Shown here: piece by piece, positions 7,491 to 14,414 of the stretch | Numbering within the stretch: the first letter of the stretch is position 1 | How the letters are laid out: each line of letters opens with the position of its first letter | Origin: Natrarchaeobaculum sulfurireducens | GTDB taxonomy: Archaea; Halobacteriota; Halobacteria; Halobacteriales; Natrialbaceae | Direction of reading: 5' to 3' | DNA: 64,000 bases | NCBI RefSeq assembly: GCF_003430825.1 | Contig: NZ_CP024047.1 | Location: 744,001-808,000, forward strand | Position numbers and translations under genes: made by a program | Notes under the pieces: generated by a model | The model's input: the letters and a program-made list of their open reading frames with translations, nothing else | Told to the model about the DNA's origin: nothing | Databases searched by the model: none

Positions 7491-8903
7491 TCAGCGGTCG
7501 TCGACCCGATCTGTCGCTCCATCGCTCGAGTTCGACCCTGTACTCTCCTCGGCGTCCTCAGTCCGTCTTCTCGCGGACGTCGAACGAGTCTTTGTGGCTG
7601 GACGGCCGCTCGAACCGACGTCCTGGCCCGCCGTGACCGACGCTGACTCGTCATCATGGGCCACCGTCCCGGCCATATCGGAGTCGTCGTGGGGTCGCTC
7701 CTCGACGTCGTGACCATCGGTCGACGTACGCTCACCGGATGGGGCGGCTCGCGGGAACTCGAGTGGGACGGCGGCCGTCACGTCGTCCGTACGACGGGGG
7801 CGGCTCGACGGCACCGACGGGGGATCGTAGACGTAGGCTACGTCGTCGACGGCTACCAGATACCGTCCCGTCTCCCGATCGTGGACGATCGCTTCGCCGG
7901 TATCGATCCCCAACTCGGCGAGTGCGGCCAGCGACGGGACGGCCGCATGTGGCTTCTCGAGCACCGATTCCGGGAGCGTTGCGGGGACGATCACCTCGTC
8001 GAACTCGGCCACGTCGTTGCGGTAGGCGAGCCACTCACGTTCAGCGGTCGTCGGTTCGGGAACCCGACGTGAAGCCAGGGCGACGCCCGAAAGCCCCCCA
8101 GCACCGAGCAGGGCGAGCAGTGGGCCGCCAACGCTTCGAGCGGGGCCGTAGGAGGCAGCGACGGTTTCGGTTCGGAACGATTCGTGGGATTCGTCGAGGT
8201 CACCCTCGGTGTCGAACGCGTACGTCGAGCCGTCGTACTCGATCGGGACCGTCACGCTGTCGGCCGCGAGCTGCTCGGTCCCGTCGATCGTCCCCCCGAT
8301 CTCGCGGTCGACCTCGAGGCGGATCTCGGTTTGACCTGGGCTCGCCTCGAGGTCCGTCTCGATCTCGTCGATCCGGTCGCTGACGGCGGAGACGTTCATC
8401 TCGAACGTCGCGGTGACTGGCTCGCCGGGGTCGACGTCGGTTTCGTTGACGTTCGTCAGTCGCTCTCGCTCGTTCCAGTAGACCGTGCCCTCGTCGGGTT
8501 CGACCGCACGGTAGTGGAGGTCGACGACGAGCGACACGGCGACGTCTTCACCACTGGCAGCATCGTAGCCGCCGACGAACGCCCCCTCGGCAGTCGGCGA
8601 GATTGCCGTGTAGTACAGCGGCTCGTTCTCGAGGACGTCCTTCTCGGGATAGGCCGCCGTCGAGTCGACCACCGGGGCCGCGTGGTCGACCTCGCCCGTC
8701 GCGGTCCAGCTGTACTCGAGTCGCTCTTCCGTGGTCTCTCCCGGATCGGCGTAGACGCCGTAGCTCACCCACGCGCCGAGTGTGAGGACGAGCACGAGGG
8801 CGACCGCGATCGTTGTTCGGTGCTTCCAGAACAGGGTTCGGAGCCGGAGTCGTCGCTCCCGGTCCCCGTTCACGTCGTCGGTGTCGGTCGGTGTCGAACG
8901 CAT
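7491..8903 (-). CDS. DUF5305 membrane protein of the fibre/signal-peptidase operon
   Basis: A 470-residue protein with an N-terminal transmembrane helix (about 29-48), an extracellular domain of about 200 residues (TGEVDHAAPVVDS onward), a second helix near 265-285, and a long cytoplasmic tail rich in Asp, Ser and Arg. The extracellular part matches what I know as DUF5305, a domain that travels with SipW-type signal peptidases in archaea. Its ATG starts 1 bp after the signal peptidase stop, so the two are surely co-translated or co-transcribed. It may help export or anchor the secreted DUF1102 proteins; that is inference. Confidence 0.75.
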   Translation of the reverse strand: MRSTPTDTDDVNGDRERRLRLRTLFWKHRTTIAVALVLVLTLGAWVSYGVYADPGETTEERLEYSWTATGEVDHAAPVVDSTAAYPEKDVLENEPLYYTAISPTAEGAFVGGYDAASGEDVAVSLVVDLHYRAVEPDEGTVYWNERERLTNVNETDVDPGEPVTATFEMNVSAVSDRIDEIETDLEASPGQTEIRLEVDREIGGTIDGTEQLAADSVTVPIEYDGSTYAFDTEGDLDESHESFRTETVAASYGPARSVGGPLLALLGAGGLSGVALASRRVPEPTTAEREWLAYRNDVAEFDEVIVPATLPESVLEKPHAAVPSLAALAELGIDTGEAIVHDRETGRYLVAVDDVAYVYDPPSVPSSRPRRTDDVTAAVPLEFPRAAPSGERTSTDGHDVEERPHDDSDMAGTVAHDDESASVTAGQDVGSSGRPATKTRSTSARRRTEDAEESTGSNSSDGATDRVDDR

Positions 8904-8904
8904 G

Positions 8905-10071
8905 TCAGTAGAGTCGCCGGAGGATCGATCGGCGGGGACCACGCTCGCGAATCGTTGCCCGTCTCGCGCGTGGATCGGCGGGGCCGAGCAGGTATCGCCC
9001 GAGGAGGTAGAGCCCACCGCCGAGTATCGCGTTGATCGCGACGAACGGCACCCAGGGGTGGACGTCGTAGAGGACGTCGAGGACGGGTGCCGGGAGGACG
9101 TACAGGTATCGGTGCTCCGTGACGTACGTCGGGTAGTAACCGGTCTCCTCGGGCGCTTCGATGGCGACGGTGGTTTCGCCCTCCGAGCGCGGGCCGACGG
9201 TCGTCGACTCGAGGTCGACGCCCACGGACCCACTGCCGGGTTCGACGTACGAAACGATCGGGACGAAGCCGCCGTTCGGAATCTCGTGCGGAATCTCTTC
9301 GGTCGTCCCCTGTTCGATCACCAGCGGGCGATCGGACTCGAACTCCGCGCTGACGACGTCATACGAGTGGGTCCCGGCGGGAACGAGCATCGCCGCCGAC
9401 GCGGCCACGACGACGACGAGCGCGAACCCGGCCGCGAGCAGTCGGGGGTCGAGTTCCTCGAGTGCCCGCTCGCCGCTGTCGCTCCCTCCATCTCGAGGGG
9501 ATCGGTCGCGGCGCTCGCGGATCGTCTCGAGCGCATAGAGGACGACCGAGAGTCCGAGCAGCAGGTATGCGAGCCCTGTTGTCCCGAGGAACGACCGCAC
9601 CCCGAACGTCGCCGCCAGCCAGGTCTGGCCCCGCTCGAGCGTCTCGCCGATCGTCATGACGGCGGTTCCGAGGGAGTTGATCGTGACCACGCTCCCGTCG
9701 ACCTGCAACGCGGTCGCGACGACCTGGGCGTCCTGGACGGGCGGCTCAGCGCTGTCCTGGTCGGTGAACGGGTTGGCGTCCCCTTGCGTGACGTAGCCGG
9801 TGTCGGTTTCGTCGACGACGCGATGGGTCGTCAGCCCGCCGCCTTCGATCTCCTGGGCGTCGAAGACGACAACGTCGCCCGGTTCGGGCTCGCCGACGAG
9901 CTGGCTCGGAACCGCGACGAACCCGTCGCCGGTTTCGATCGTCGGTTCCATGCTCCCCGTCTCGACGAACCCAAGCAGCACTGGCTGTCCCAGTAGCTGC
10001 CCGGCCAGCAGGGCCACGACCGCTGTAAGGACGAGTAGTTGTAGCCCGCGGCTCATCACCCATCGAATCAT
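8905..10071 (-). CDS. ER-type (SipW-like) signal peptidase I
   Basis: A 388-residue membrane peptidase that removes signal peptides outside the membrane. The catalytic Ser lies in ETGSMEPTIETGD, and the TTHRVVDE box supplies a His in place of the bacterial Lys, as in eukaryotic ER, archaeal and Bacillus SipW enzymes. GYVTQGDAN carries the conserved Asp. After the peptidase domain (about 1-170) come a large second extracellular domain and further helices, longer than a minimal enzyme of about 200 residues. The upstream genes encode DUF1102/TasA-like secreted proteins, the expected substrates. Start chosen as the ATG at 10071; a TTG five codons upstream is possible. Confidence 0.85.
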   Translation of the reverse strand: MIRWVMSRGLQLLVLTAVVALLAGQLLGQPVLLGFVETGSMEPTIETGDGFVAVPSQLVGEPEPGDVVVFDAQEIEGGGLTTHRVVDETDTGYVTQGDANPFTDQDSAEPPVQDAQVVATALQVDGSVVTINSLGTAVMTIGETLERGQTWLAATFGVRSFLGTTGLAYLLLGLSVVLYALETIRERRDRSPRDGGSDSGERALEELDPRLLAAGFALVVVVAASAAMLVPAGTHSYDVVSAEFESDRPLVIEQGTTEEIPHEIPNGGFVPIVSYVEPGSGSVGVDLESTTVGPRSEGETTVAIEAPEETGYYPTYVTEHRYLYVLPAPVLDVLYDVHPWVPFVAINAILGGGLYLLGRYLLGPADPRARRATIRERGPRRSILRRLY

Positions 10072-10144
10072 CCCAGGTCGCCCCAATCACGTTGGTATAT
10101 TTGAAAGTTAGGGTGGTTGAACAGTCGGGCCGTGTGCGAACGAT

Positions 10145-11401
10145 TCATGCTGTCGACCGGCGGTGGGCCAGTACACCGAGAGCAATGACGACCAGCGCCC
10201 CGGCGACGAGACCGACGACCGCCGCCGAGCCGGCGGCATCGCTTCGGTCGGCATCCTCGTCTTCAGGCTCGGGCGTCACTGGCTCGTCCGTCTCGGTGAT
10301 AGCTGTCCCACCGTCGGAACTCGGTTGGATCGGGTCGCCAGCGTCGTCAGTTCGCTCGCCCTCGAGTGTCGGCGCGTCGGCCGCCACGACGTATCGCGAG
10401 AAGCCATCGTCGGTCGCGACCGACGCGACCGTTCCGTTCGTCGCCTCGAGCCGTTCCGTCTCGAGTTCGATCCAGTCGTCGCCGTCGTCTCCGTAGATAG
10501 CCACAGAATCGGGGTCGACCGCCTTCCGCTCGAGCCAGTCCTCCTCGAGGGCGTATCGGTACTCCACGTCCTCGATGGACTCGTCGGGGCCGTCGACGGC
10601 GACGTCGCCGATCGAGGCCATTCCGGGTTCGTCGAACGGCGTCGTCTTTCGCTCCCCGTCGGGGTCGACCTCGATTTCCACGTCTTCGTCGGTCACGAAC
10701 GAGGCGTCCAGTTCCTCGAGGGTCACGCCGGCTCCGACGTCGTACTCGAGAAGTTCGATCGTGGCGGTTTGGCAGGGGTCGACGTCGGTTACGGAAACCG
10801 CTCGAGTCGTCTTCTTGGGTATCTCGACGTCGACGCTCGGCCCGGCGGGACAGGGATCGGCTGGTGGCGATGGTGAGGCCCCAGGGTCGGACGGGGGCTC
10901 GTCTTCGTCCGGGACTTTCGTGTTGATCGTCACCGAATCGATGATCGGCTCGATCGTCTCGAGATCCCGGGTATCGGTCGTGAAACCGACCGCAACCGTG
11001 TCGTAGTCCGGCGTGAGGAGCGTCTTGTTGTCTTCCCCCTCGATAGCGTTTGACGCGTTTCCGTCCGCGTAGACGGTGACGTAGTCGGAGTCGTGCTCGA
11101 GCCAGACGTACGTGAACTCGTCGCCGGTATAGGTGAGCGTGAAGACGTCGGTGACTCCGGTCAGTGCCTCGTAGTTGATGCCGTCACCGTCACCCGCGTC
11201 GTTGTCCGCGGTGAGGTCGATCACGAGTTCGCCGGTCTCGTTGTCGACGAACGCATAGGCCCCGTTCGGACCAGGATGGGGTTCGGCGGTGATGTTTGCG
11301 TGGACGTGGTCCACATTGTTCGAAAAGACCTGCCCCCCAGCGGTGGCGACGAGCAGACAGACTACAGCGGCCGCGAGAAGTCCGAGTGCAAGTCGTTTCA
11401 T
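10145..11401 (-). CDS. DUF1102 surface protein with C-terminal anchor
   Basis: A 418-residue exported protein. It has an N-terminal signal (residues 4-24), a DUF1102/camelysin-like domain (about 25-165) with GAYAFVDNETGELVIDL, a Pro/Asp/Ser hinge (about 168-187), a second beta-rich domain with paired cysteines (about 187-345), an acidic spacer, and a final transmembrane helix with basic end (AHRRSTA). The GPNGAYA...ELVIDL segment aligns with the two shorter DUF1102 proteins upstream. It sits 73 bp before the signal peptidase. By position it could be the membrane-anchored or tip subunit of a fibre made from the shorter proteins; this is inference. Confidence 0.75.
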   Translation of the reverse strand: MKRLALGLLAAAVVCLLVATAGGQVFSNNVDHVHANITAEPHPGPNGAYAFVDNETGELVIDLTADNDAGDGDGINYEALTGVTDVFTLTYTGDEFTYVWLEHDSDYVTVYADGNASNAIEGEDNKTLLTPDYDTVAVGFTTDTRDLETIEPIIDSVTINTKVPDEDEPPSDPGASPSPPADPCPAGPSVDVEIPKKTTRAVSVTDVDPCQTATIELLEYDVGAGVTLEELDASFVTDEDVEIEVDPDGERKTTPFDEPGMASIGDVAVDGPDESIEDVEYRYALEEDWLERKAVDPDSVAIYGDDGDDWIELETERLEATNGTVASVATDDGFSRYVVAADAPTLEGERTDDAGDPIQPSSDGGTAITETDEPVTPEPEDEDADRSDAAGSAAVVGLVAGALVVIALGVLAHRRSTA

Positions 11402-11490
11402 TTTGAATGCCGTTGAACGGTCACTACATGCGGATCTGGTCGGTGGACCGAGAATCTCCCGTCGACCAACGAAAATCGCTGGTTCGGCTG

Positions 11491-12171
11491 TCAGTTGGCG
11501 TAGTGGTGGTTGGCGACTGTTCCCTCGAGTTCGGACTTTGTTTCGTCGCTGACTTCATCGAGGTCAAAAGAAGGGGGATTCTCGGCTGGACTTCCGGGGT
11601 TCGTGGTCTCGGCGGTGATCTCAAGCGTGAACTCGAACTCGTTGGGCTCTTCTGGATCTTCGGGACCGCCTAGAAGCGGTTCACTCGAGTGGAACGCGAG
11701 TGCACCGTAGACGACCTCTTCCCCTTCGGAGATAATTTCCGGGTCTTGTGGGAAGAAGACGAACGCCCAGGTGTTCAAGACGACGATGATCGACCCGCTA
11801 GCGAAATCGACCTCGACATCGGTTTGTGCCTCCGCTACGCCGTCCGGGTCGAACTCGATTTGCACATCGTCCTGTGTGCCGAGATTCTGTACAGCAAACA
11901 CGTCTTCGACGATCGTGACCGCGTCCAAATTGAAGTGTTCACCGCCGGCGTCCGTCGGGTTATCGCTCGTGAAGTCGATCTCGATCGTGCCGTCGGTATC
12001 CCCGATGGCGTACTCGCTTTGCGACTCGAGACCGAGATACGCGTTCGCGTCCTCCGCGAGTTCGACGCTCACATCACGCTCTGCCTCGACACTCGTAAAC
12101 GCACCCGTGCCCAGTGCCACTGTGCTAGCGGACGCTGCACCGAGTCCAAGAACGAAGGTCCGTCGGTTCAT
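11491..12171 (-). CDS. DUF1102 / TasA-like secreted subunit
   Basis: A 226-residue exported protein. The N-terminus MNRRTFVLGLGA is twin-arginine-like, the hydrophobic part ends ALGTGAFTSVEA, then the mature protein opens RDVSVELAEDANAYLGLE, the hallmark of archaeal TasA/camelysin-related (DUF1102) proteins. There is no C-terminal membrane helix, so it is released or assembled outside the cell. Its ATG lies 3 bp after the stop of the next paralogue. In Pyrobaculum, related proteins form bundling pili by donor-strand exchange; a similar role here is plausible but unproven. Confidence 0.8.
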   Translation of the reverse strand: MNRRTFVLGLGAASASTVALGTGAFTSVEAERDVSVELAEDANAYLGLESQSEYAIGDTDGTIEIDFTSDNPTDAGGEHFNLDAVTIVEDVFAVQNLGTQDDVQIEFDPDGVAEAQTDVEVDFASGSIIVVLNTWAFVFFPQDPEIISEGEEVVYGALAFHSSEPLLGGPEDPEEPNEFEFTLEITAETTNPGSPAENPPSFDLDEVSDETKSELEGTVANHHYAN

Positions 12172-12174
12172 CAG

Positions 12175-12654
12175 TCAGGCCTCCGCACCGACGACGAGGG
12201 TTCCATCTTCTTTTTCGGGGTCTTCGTTCAGCGTATCGACTGTCACATCGACCAGCGTCCCTTCGCCCGCGTCGATCGTATCTTCCTGAAGCTTGAATGT
12301 GACTCCGTCTTGGACGTCACTTTCATCGAGATCAAGGGAAACACTGTCCTGTGTCCCCTGATTTTCGATCCTGAACACACCATCGATTTCGGTCACTGCG
12401 TCGTCGTTAAATCCGGCTCCGCCTTCGTCAGTCTCTTCAGAGCCGAGGTCGATACTCAAGGTTCCATCGCTTCCATCATCGCTAATAATGTCGTCGCGTT
12501 CGGCAGTTAGGGCAAGATAGGCGTTTGCGTCTTCCGCAAGTTCAACACCCACGTCACGGCTCGCCTCGACACTCGTGAACGCGCCCGTACCGACTGCCGC
12601 AGCTGCTCCTGATGCCAGTGCTCCTACTCCAATGACGAATTTGCGTCGTTGCAT
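12175..12654 (-). CDS. DUF1102 / TasA-like secreted subunit, first gene of operon
   Basis: A 159-residue paralogue of the following gene. It begins MQRRKFVIGVGALASG, has the same GTGAFTSVEA cleavage region and the same mature start DVGVELAEDANAYLAL, and is a compact single beta domain. At about 16 kDa it has the size expected for a repeating fibre subunit. It is the promoter-proximal gene of a five-gene set running to 7491 (two short DUF1102 proteins, one long DUF1102 protein, signal peptidase, DUF5305). The start follows the aligned signal sequence. Confidence 0.8.
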   Translation of the reverse strand: MQRRKFVIGVGALASGAAAAVGTGAFTSVEASRDVGVELAEDANAYLALTAERDDIISDDGSDGTLSIDLGSEETDEGGAGFNDDAVTEIDGVFRIENQGTQDSVSLDLDESDVQDGVTFKLQEDTIDAGEGTLVDVTVDTLNEDPEKEDGTLVVGAEA

Positions 12655-13166
12655 GGTTGGATTCTCCGTTTTGGTTCTATCGCGAGCGACCACACGTCCA
12701 CACGTACGGCGACACGTCGTCGCACCCGAATCCCCGTCGCGGGGATCACAGATCATCCGTGGCTGGCACGGGATATTGTAATACAGTCGTAGCGTACATT
12801 TCAACACGCAGTGACTCTCAGTCAACTGTCCGCCGACCAACACGGAGTGGAGTCTGGAGCGCATTGACCGACTCTGTAAGTGCCGTAGCGACCAGCGACT
12901 ATCGTTCCACCCGAGGTTACAGCCGGGTCAACCCTCTCGAGACTGCCCCGCACTGCCGTATCGAATCGCTTGACCGATGACAAATCAGACGTTGAGTCCG
13001 CTCGAGCAGATGGATATGATGGATTGACGGTGACTGCTCGGAAAGAGGCGCACGCGTTGAAACCGGCAGTAGACGCATCGAATCCGGCTATCTCCACAGT
13101 TATCAATAGTAGGGACTTACTTCAATACTAACCTTTTTACCGGGGGTTGTGGTAACCGGAAGCCGT
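12655..13166. promoter_or_regulatory. divergent control region between fibre operon and its likely regulator
   Basis: 512 bp without a gene. Near the regulator, ttcaatactaacctttttacc (13121-13141) gives a TATA-like stretch about 30-40 bp before the ATG at 13167. On the operon side a weak AT patch (gatattgtaatac, 12773-12785) lies about 120 bp before the first DUF1102 gene. I saw no strong inverted repeat that would mark an operator. Confidence 0.4.
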
Positions 13167-13808
13167 ATGGGGGCTACACAGATTGACAAGCCCGGGGATG
13201 GATCTTCGTCGAGCGAGGCGGACGGCGTCGTCGCCGAAGAATCGGCGGACGTCACGAAGCCGACGCTGAGTGAAGACGACCTCTTCGAACTGCTCGCCAA
13301 TCGACGCCGGCGCTACATTCTCCACGAGCTCATGCGGAAGGGCGAGGCCGTCGACATCGGGTCGCTCTCCCAGGAGATCGCCGCCAACGAGGACGGCCTC
13401 GAGGTACACGAAGTCTCGAGCAAGGATCGAAAGCGCGTCTACACGGCGTTACACCAGTCGCACCTGCCGAAGATGGACAAGACCGGCGTCGTCTCCTTCG
13501 ATCGCGATCGGGGGACGGTCGAACCGACGCAGGCGCTCGAGGACGTCGAGATCTACATGGACGTCGTTCGCGGACGTGAACTCCCCTGGAGCGACTACTA
13601 CCTCGGGTTGACGGCACTCTCGGCGGTCTTTCTTGCCGCCTCGACGCTGGCGGTCGGGCCGTTTGCGGCGCTTCCGCTGTCTGCCTGGGGTGCGTTCGTG
13701 GTCGTCTCGTTCGGCGTCTTCGCGTTCGCCCACCGGTATTACGCCCGACGAAATCGTCTCGGAATCGATCGCGATCCACCGGAAGTCGAGTACTCGTATG
13801 CCGAGTAA
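13167..13808 (+). CDS. membrane-tethered HTH regulator (DUF7344-type)
   Basis: A 213-residue protein. The N-terminal half carries a winged-helix domain typical of haloarchaeal DUF7344 proteins: DDLFELLANRRRRYILHEL, SLSQEIAA and RKRVYTALHQSHLPKMD (about residues 37-110). Two hydrophobic helices (about 145-165 and 168-188) follow, so the DNA-binding part is anchored at the membrane. It faces away from the DUF1102 operon and is followed by another DUF1102-like gene, making it the likely regulator of both. An upstream in-frame GTG at 13149 is less likely. Confidence 0.75.
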   Translation: MGATQIDKPGDGSSSSEADGVVAEESADVTKPTLSEDDLFELLANRRRRYILHELMRKGEAVDIGSLSQEIAANEDGLEVHEVSSKDRKRVYTALHQSHLPKMDKTGVVSFDRDRGTVEPTQALEDVEIYMDVVRGRELPWSDYYLGLTALSAVFLAASTLAVGPFAALPLSAWGAFVVVSFGVFAFAHRYYARRNRLGIDRDPPEVEYSYAE

Positions 13809-13847
13809 CGACACCCGCTCGAGATCGTCGACCGAAATTCCAATCTG

Positions 13848-14414
13848 ATGAAACGGACGAGACGCGCCGCCCTGGTGATGTTCGCCGGCTCGAGTAGCCT
13901 CCTCGCCGTTGATACGGCCGGGTTTTCGAGCGGTGAATCCGAGCGAGAAGTTACGGTCCAGGTAGCCGACGATCCTGACGCCTACCTCAGGTTAGCGCCG
14001 TACGACGGCGAAGGCGATGTCGAGACGGGCGGCCTCCTGTTCGAGGACGCCGAGCCACGAATCGCTCCGGAATCATTCTCCGTCAAAAACCAGCTCACGG
14101 AATCCGTAACGGTCGTCCTCGAGTCGAACGAGTTCGAGTTCGATCTGGTCGGCGACGGTCAAAGCGGCGACGGAGAGGCGAAACTGAAACCCGGAACCAG
14201 CGTCGACGTCGAGGTACGGCCGGCAGTAGACAGTTCGGGCCCCACCAATGGTACGATCGAGATCACGGCCGAAGGCGACGCGATTCTCATCGAAGCCAAA
14301 CGGACCCTCACCCTCAAGTCCAAGGAGGGCACGTACGACTCCGACGAGGACGCATCCGACTCCGACGAGGACGCATCCGACTCCGACGAGGACACATCCG
14401 ACTCCGACGAGTAA
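13848..14414 (+). CDS. DUF1102-like secreted protein with Asp/Ser repeat tail
   Basis: A 188-residue exported protein. The beginning MKRTRRAALVMFAGSSS is Tat-like, and TAGFSSGESEREVTVQVADD followed by PDAYLRLAP closely mirrors the GAFTSVEAERDVSVELAEDANAYL pattern of the operon on the other strand. The body is a single beta domain. The C-terminus is made of seven-residue acidic repeats (SDEDASD type) encoded by 21-bp DNA repeats, with no membrane helix. It starts 39 bp after the regulator gene and probably shares its transcript. It may be an alternative or minor fibre subunit. Confidence 0.7.
   Translation: MKRTRRAALVMFAGSSSLLAVDTAGFSSGESEREVTVQVADDPDAYLRLAPYDGEGDVETGGLLFEDAEPRIAPESFSVKNQLTESVTVVLESNEFEFDLVGDGQSGDGEAKLKPGTSVDVEVRPAVDSSGPTNGTIEITAEGDAILIEAKRTLTLKSKEGTYDSDEDASDSDEDASDSDEDTSDSDE
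14337..14412 (+). repeat. 21-bp coding tandem repeat, 3.6 copies
   Basis: The unit gactccgacgaggacgcatc(c) is repeated at 14337, 14358, 14379 and partly 14400, and encodes the acidic tail of the DUF1102-like protein. Copies are nearly identical, suggesting recent expansion and possible length variation between strains. Confidence 0.85.

Follow-up and report, generated by a model that had tools for sequence, protein, structure and literature searches.

A Tat-fimbriae-type locus with two tandem pilins in Natrarchaeobaculum sulfurireducens

Genes of the locus

A 64,000-nucleotide stretch of the Natrarchaeobaculum sulfurireducens genome (contig NZ_CP024047.1, positions 744,001 to 808,000; hereafter the window) contains a group of seven genes at positions 7491–14414. 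Five are co-directional on the minus strand (P1 to P5), with intergenic distances of 3, 89, 73, and 1 bp, and two (P6 and P7) are divergent on the plus strand (Table 1). A first-pass annotation, made from the letters of the sequence, had described a run on one strand with gaps of 1–90 bp, closed by a DUF5305 membrane protein, with a membrane-bound HTH regulator and a relative with an acidic tail facing away. Each of these elements was recovered as P5, P6, which has two C-terminal transmembrane segments, and P7.

Table 1. Features of the locus, in window coordinates
Feature	Position	Strand	Description
P1, pilin	12175..12654	-	159 aa; twin-arginine leader QRRKFVIG
P2, second pilin	11491..12171	-	226 aa; twin-arginine leader NRRTFVLG
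P3, anchored relative, TafF-like	10145..11401	-	418 aa
P4, S26 signal peptidase	8905..10071	-	388 aa
P5, DUF5305 membrane protein	7491..8903	-	470 aa; PF17231, E 7e-54
P6, DUF7344 putative regulator	13167..13808	+	213 aa; PF24035, E 3.5e-28
P7, fourth relative, TafC-like N-terminal part	13848..14414	+	188 aa; Tat-type leader, acidic tail
Divergent intergenic region P1/P6	12655..13166	.	Presumed promoters of both transcription units, from gene layout

The two short proteins have the segment GTGAFTSVEA(S/E)RDV(G/S)VELAEDANAYL in common, which confirms the shared start reported earlier. Identity between P1 and P2 is 69% in the leader, 88% over residues 31–47, and 41% in the remainder. Leaders of P1, P2, and the tandem pilin pairs collected below contain a twin-arginine motif and a hydrophobic stretch, and from this motif the pilins are probably exported by Tat rather than Sec. 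Cleavage of P1 is predicted at GTGA/F (residue 25/26), and P1 is probably the main fibre subunit. P2 starts its mature part like P1 and carries a hydrophobic insert, IIVVLNTWAFVFF, identified by hydropathy. The idea that such an insert characterises second pilins in general was rejected, as it is present in some loci but not overall (P = 0.56). In three loci that have no P3 gene (L040, L047, and L049), the second pilins carry a hydrophobic insert similar to GVLGVLLVPQ together with a GPNGNY motif that resembles P3, as if P2 had taken over the anchoring role there.

The longer anchored relative placed downstream of this pair is P3, which has a Sec-type leader, an N-terminal pilin-like domain, a PGF-pre-PGF region, and a C-terminal transmembrane segment (residues 387–414). 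PGF-pre-PGF regions are a feature of surface proteins. P3 matches TIGR04213 with 29.5 bits; its N-terminal domain aligns with the pilin family (hhalign, 99.4%), and P3 aligns with the TafF family (hhalign, 97.7%). A pilin profile constructed from 15 sequences (A1) and searched against the host genome finds P1, P2, the N-terminal domain of P3 (E 5e-13), and the start of P7 (E 3e-7). The earlier claim of four relatives therefore stands, and the DUF1102 label that came with it is fair at the family level only: 8 of the 15 family members match PF06510 (best E 1e-7), and in the window the only match is P3, at 15.5 bits, below the cut-off of 22.2.

P4 had been described as an ER-type signal peptidase with Ser/His residues. 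It exceeds the cut-off of TIGR02228 (archaeal signal peptidase I; 56.3 bits versus 51.85), and its Ser40 and His83 are invariant in an alignment of 11 sequences, in agreement with that description. C-terminal to the S26 part are transmembrane helices followed by a beta ectodomain at about residues 230–325. A phage origin was dismissed, as a search of 50,697 phage records found no relative of P4. At its 3' end, the P7 gene contains a 21-nt tandem repeat (14336–14411; 3.6 copies, 98% match) that codes for the acidic SDSDEDA repeat tail, so the length of this tail may vary between strains.

Relation to known tafi loci and distribution in Natrialbaceae

The description of Tat-fimbriae ("tafi") dates from 2025 (Galeva et al., doi 10.1016/j.isci.2025.111793, as cited in PMC12687288). 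Judged from its proteins, the locus is of this haloarchaeal kind, which is already known, with scores below the curated Taf cut-offs and a layout of its own. P1 and P2 score 58 and 63 bits with NCBIfam TafE (cut-off 155 bits) and 30 and 29 bits with TafA (cut-off 190 bits), and P2 also matches TafC (26 bits). Both match the TafE family almost from end to end (98.9% in the profile alignment), and their alignment with TafA is confined to the leader and the first mature residues. P7 reaches 36 bits with TafC (cut-off 410 bits), in its N-terminal part only. PDB entry 9P0A, titled "Structure of Natrinema sp. J7-2 Tafi pilus" in the fold-search table, is matched by P1 (E 5e-11) and P2 (E 7e-8) as single sequences and by profile A1 at E 1.2e-24. 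A haloarchaeal surface fibre, as first proposed for the locus, is supported, with pilins that have a SipW-like peptidase of their own. The AF2 model of P1 is all beta (pLDDT 71), with a strand at residues 34–39 inside the segment shared with P2. Among the matches listed in its fold search, self-complemented FimA variants come first; 7UEG (the Pyrobaculum calidifontis AbpA bundling pilus) and Tafi 9P0A follow closely, and the scores are weak throughout (E 3e-3 to 4e-2, TM 0.3–0.4).

No TafA match was found in the host genome at E 1e-10. In a sample of the order, TafA is over its cut-off in seven genomes. One of these (L077, a Haloarcula-type locus) has TafA, TafC, TafE, and TafF all over their cut-offs. 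In the same stretch it also has counterparts of P4 (an S26 peptidase, 221 bits), P5 (a DUF5305 gene, 141 bits), and P6 (a DUF7344 gene, 132 bits), the last of which occupies the position of TafB. From gene order, TafB would be the DUF7344 gene and TafD the S26 peptidase; neither letter is among the library matches. Homologues of the tafi gene set (DUF7344 regulator, TafC, S26 peptidase, and TafF) are all four present in the window, and by sequence comparison every tafi part appears to have a counterpart there except a recognisable TafA. The window resembles the Haloarcula-type TafA-TafF cluster in its TafE-like pilins, regulator, TafC-like protein, peptidase, TafF-like anchored protein, and nearby DUF5305 gene; it differs in having no TafA over the cut-off, in its two TafE-like pilins in an operon with P3-P4-P5, and in P7, which has the acidic repeat end and no Laminin_G_3 domain. 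The TafC of L077 (10542–11681) ends in this lectin-like domain, a hint that TafC may be an adhesive subunit. The Natrinema pilin of 9P0A is homologous to those of the window over most of its length and has the same GTGAF(S/T)SVEA(D/S/E)R-V-V start. A locus with a pilin very similar to it (L084) has one co-directional pilin, unlike the tandem pair of the window, and the place of P3 is taken there by a 399-aa protein that contains a CARDB domain.

The gene order P7-P6 / P1-P2-(P3)-P4-P5 was found again in many Natrialbaceae genomes, and because the same block is conserved across so many genomes the arrangement is not a product of chance. Matches to the pilin profile occur in 109 of 121 Natrialbaceae genomes, with a maximum of 14 copies per genome. 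All P4 relatives that carry names belong to Natrialbaceae, and megaplasmids of other haloarchaea also carry P4 relatives. P5 lies directly 3' of P4 in most loci examined, and of 41 relatives drawn from the family and the order, 32 have DUF5305. Four loci (L041, L048, L050, and L054) have P4-P5 pairs adjoining longer proteins of about 475–620 aa with an RR leader and a GTGAFSA start, which may represent a different class of cargo for the same peptidase and DUF5305 pair. The host genome has a second, partial locus (C3:3352587-3357139; L037:6796-11539), with DUF5305, an S26 peptidase, a DUF7344-like gene, and one pilin on one strand, after which comes a strongly acidic 240-aa protein.

Comparison with the closest relative, the sister MAG B1-Br10_E2g2 (L057), gave identities of 90% for P4, 87% for P6, 75% for P5, and 67% for P3. 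P1 and the pilin of this MAG are 83% identical in the leader and 34% in the mature part; the pilins change fast and the machinery is steady. The sole pilin gene of the MAG (L057:5470-6015) is reversed relative to P3-P4-P5. An invertible pilin cassette (phase variation) was considered for this reversal; the only flanking inverted repeat of any length is 24 nt at 79%, and the idea was dropped because tafA-B-C in Haloarcula-type loci are oriented in the same way.

Concordant N-terminal segments in tandem pilins

Tandem pilin pairs (n = 45) were collected and reduced to 21 non-redundant loci with unlike bodies. Identity over residues 1–8 after the predicted cleavage (GxGA/F) is 79% within loci and 56% between loci (z 7.6; P = 0.0002, the lowest value that 5000 permutations can give), and over residues 9–24 it is 54% and 41% (z 6.0). 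Nothing clear was found in these loci for the leader (46% within and 44% between, P = 0.09) or the body (32% and 30%, P = 0.10). The N-terminal signal persists at each of three redundancy cut-offs; at the loosest, the body from residue 45 on gives P = 0.02, a small effect. Identical residues are encoded by identical codons in a fraction of 0.48 within loci and 0.41 between loci. With about half of these codons differing, recent gene conversion is an unlikely cause of the concordance, which could come from old, short gene conversion. The tafi type itself is known; what is new is the statistical evidence for a common "plug" strand in both pilins.

The sequence of 9P0A has 215 residues, and 188 are in the structure library. 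If the 27 missing residues are N-terminal, the mature chain would start at F28, right after GTGA, and FTSVEAxRDVxVELAEDANAYL would then be the mature N-terminus acting as the donor strand. The concordance suggests that this strand is interchangeable between P1 and P2, which would form a mixed fibre by donor-strand exchange. The near-identical strands would complement the same grooves, and one mixed fibre is the simplest reading.

A different explanation is that P1 and P2 belong to separate structures, P1 forming a fibre and P2 an adapter or another fibre, with the segment common to both by ancestry or gene conversion. This accords with the hydrophobic insert of P2, the NCBIfam label of TafE as an adapter, and the average within-locus body identity of only 32%. 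However, concordance within loci is clear in the N-terminal 24 residues and not in the leader or body, and the codon differences speak against a recent conversion. We regard separate structures as unlikely, though worth keeping in mind.

Proposed fibre assembly and its alternatives

We consider it probable that the locus encodes a tafi-type fibre of P4-cut pilins joined by donor-strand exchange, with P1 and P2 mixed, P3 as anchor, and P4 and P5 in assembly. From their leaders, P1, P2, and P7 would leave the cell by Tat and P3 by Sec. P4 would cut the pilin leader after GxGA, freeing an N-terminus of the form F-x-x-x-x-x-x-R-x-V-x-V, and this strand would enter the groove of the next subunit, as homology to the solved Tafi pilus and the sequence concordance together suggest. 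P1 and P2 would fill the same grooves to give one mixed fibre. P3, with its pilin-like N-terminal domain and C-terminal anchor, would fasten the fibre to the membrane, and P5 with the ectodomain of P4 is a likely assembly platform. P6 would control the divergent promoters, and P7 may be a minor or tip subunit.

The AF2 model of P4 is poor overall (pLDDT 51), with blocks of 60–82 in the C-terminal beta domain. A Foldseek search with this domain brings up PapD/MSP-type folds, the CupB2 pilus chaperone among them, but the likeness is weak. Profile and Pfam searches for a PapD-like domain in P4 gave scattered weak matches only, and because sequence profiles give it no backing the modelled resemblance stays speculative. 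That the P4 family might combine a signal peptidase and a PapD/MSP-like ectodomain in a fusion which would cut the Tat leader, at once hold the freed pilin, and hand it to the fibre, is a doubtful idea that we rate as rather improbable. If it were true, P4 would be an archaeal counterpart, in a single protein, to the pilus chaperone of bacteria.

The first-pass annotation had read the locus as TasA/SipW-like. The mechanism in this reading holds up, but the nearest relative is tafi instead. Bacillus tapA-sipW-tasA likewise has a dedicated SipW/ER-type signal peptidase adjoining the fibre subunits, and donor-strand assembly would be a further likeness (PMC9674648). The window differs from it in several points: the leaders are Tat rather than Sec, the peptidase has 388 aa and an ectodomain, the partners are DUF5305 and DUF7344 proteins, and there is no TasA/camelysin family match. 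A true Bacillus-type TasA/camelysin matrix fibre, transferred or shared, would be built of Sec-exported subunits that SipW cleaves and would have a nucleator like TapA. The SipW model does match P4, at 34 bits, but this is far under its cut-off of 190 bits. The predicted pilin cleavage position parallels the start of the TasA fibre chain at residue 28 (PMC9674648), and the bundling pilus 7UEG, which is of the TasA-like kind (PMC9674648), is in the fold list of P1 at a weak E of 3.5e-2; for this pilus no sequence match was found, and the structural alignment has 10% identity. TasA itself is absent among the 50 fold-search matches listed for P1, and neither the window proteins nor their family gave a TasA/camelysin Pfam match at E 0.1 or 0.5. 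The pilin leaders are twin-arginine, and the TafE and 9P0A matches are far stronger, making a true TasA fibre very unlikely. Least likely of all, P1–P3 could be secreted or S-layer-associated proteins with Ig-like domains that do not polymerise, to which the PGF-pre-PGF region of P3 would fit, but the direct sequence relation to the solved pilus subunit of 9P0A and the co-occurrence of a dedicated peptidase and DUF5305 argue against this.

A tafi-type fibre at this locus would belong to a newly described kind of archaeal appendage, whose pilins are almost universal in Natrialbaceae. The concordant N-terminal strands lead to a direct and testable rule on the subunits that may be joined in one fibre, and the conserved pair of peptidase and DUF5305 protein points to the likely assembly machinery.
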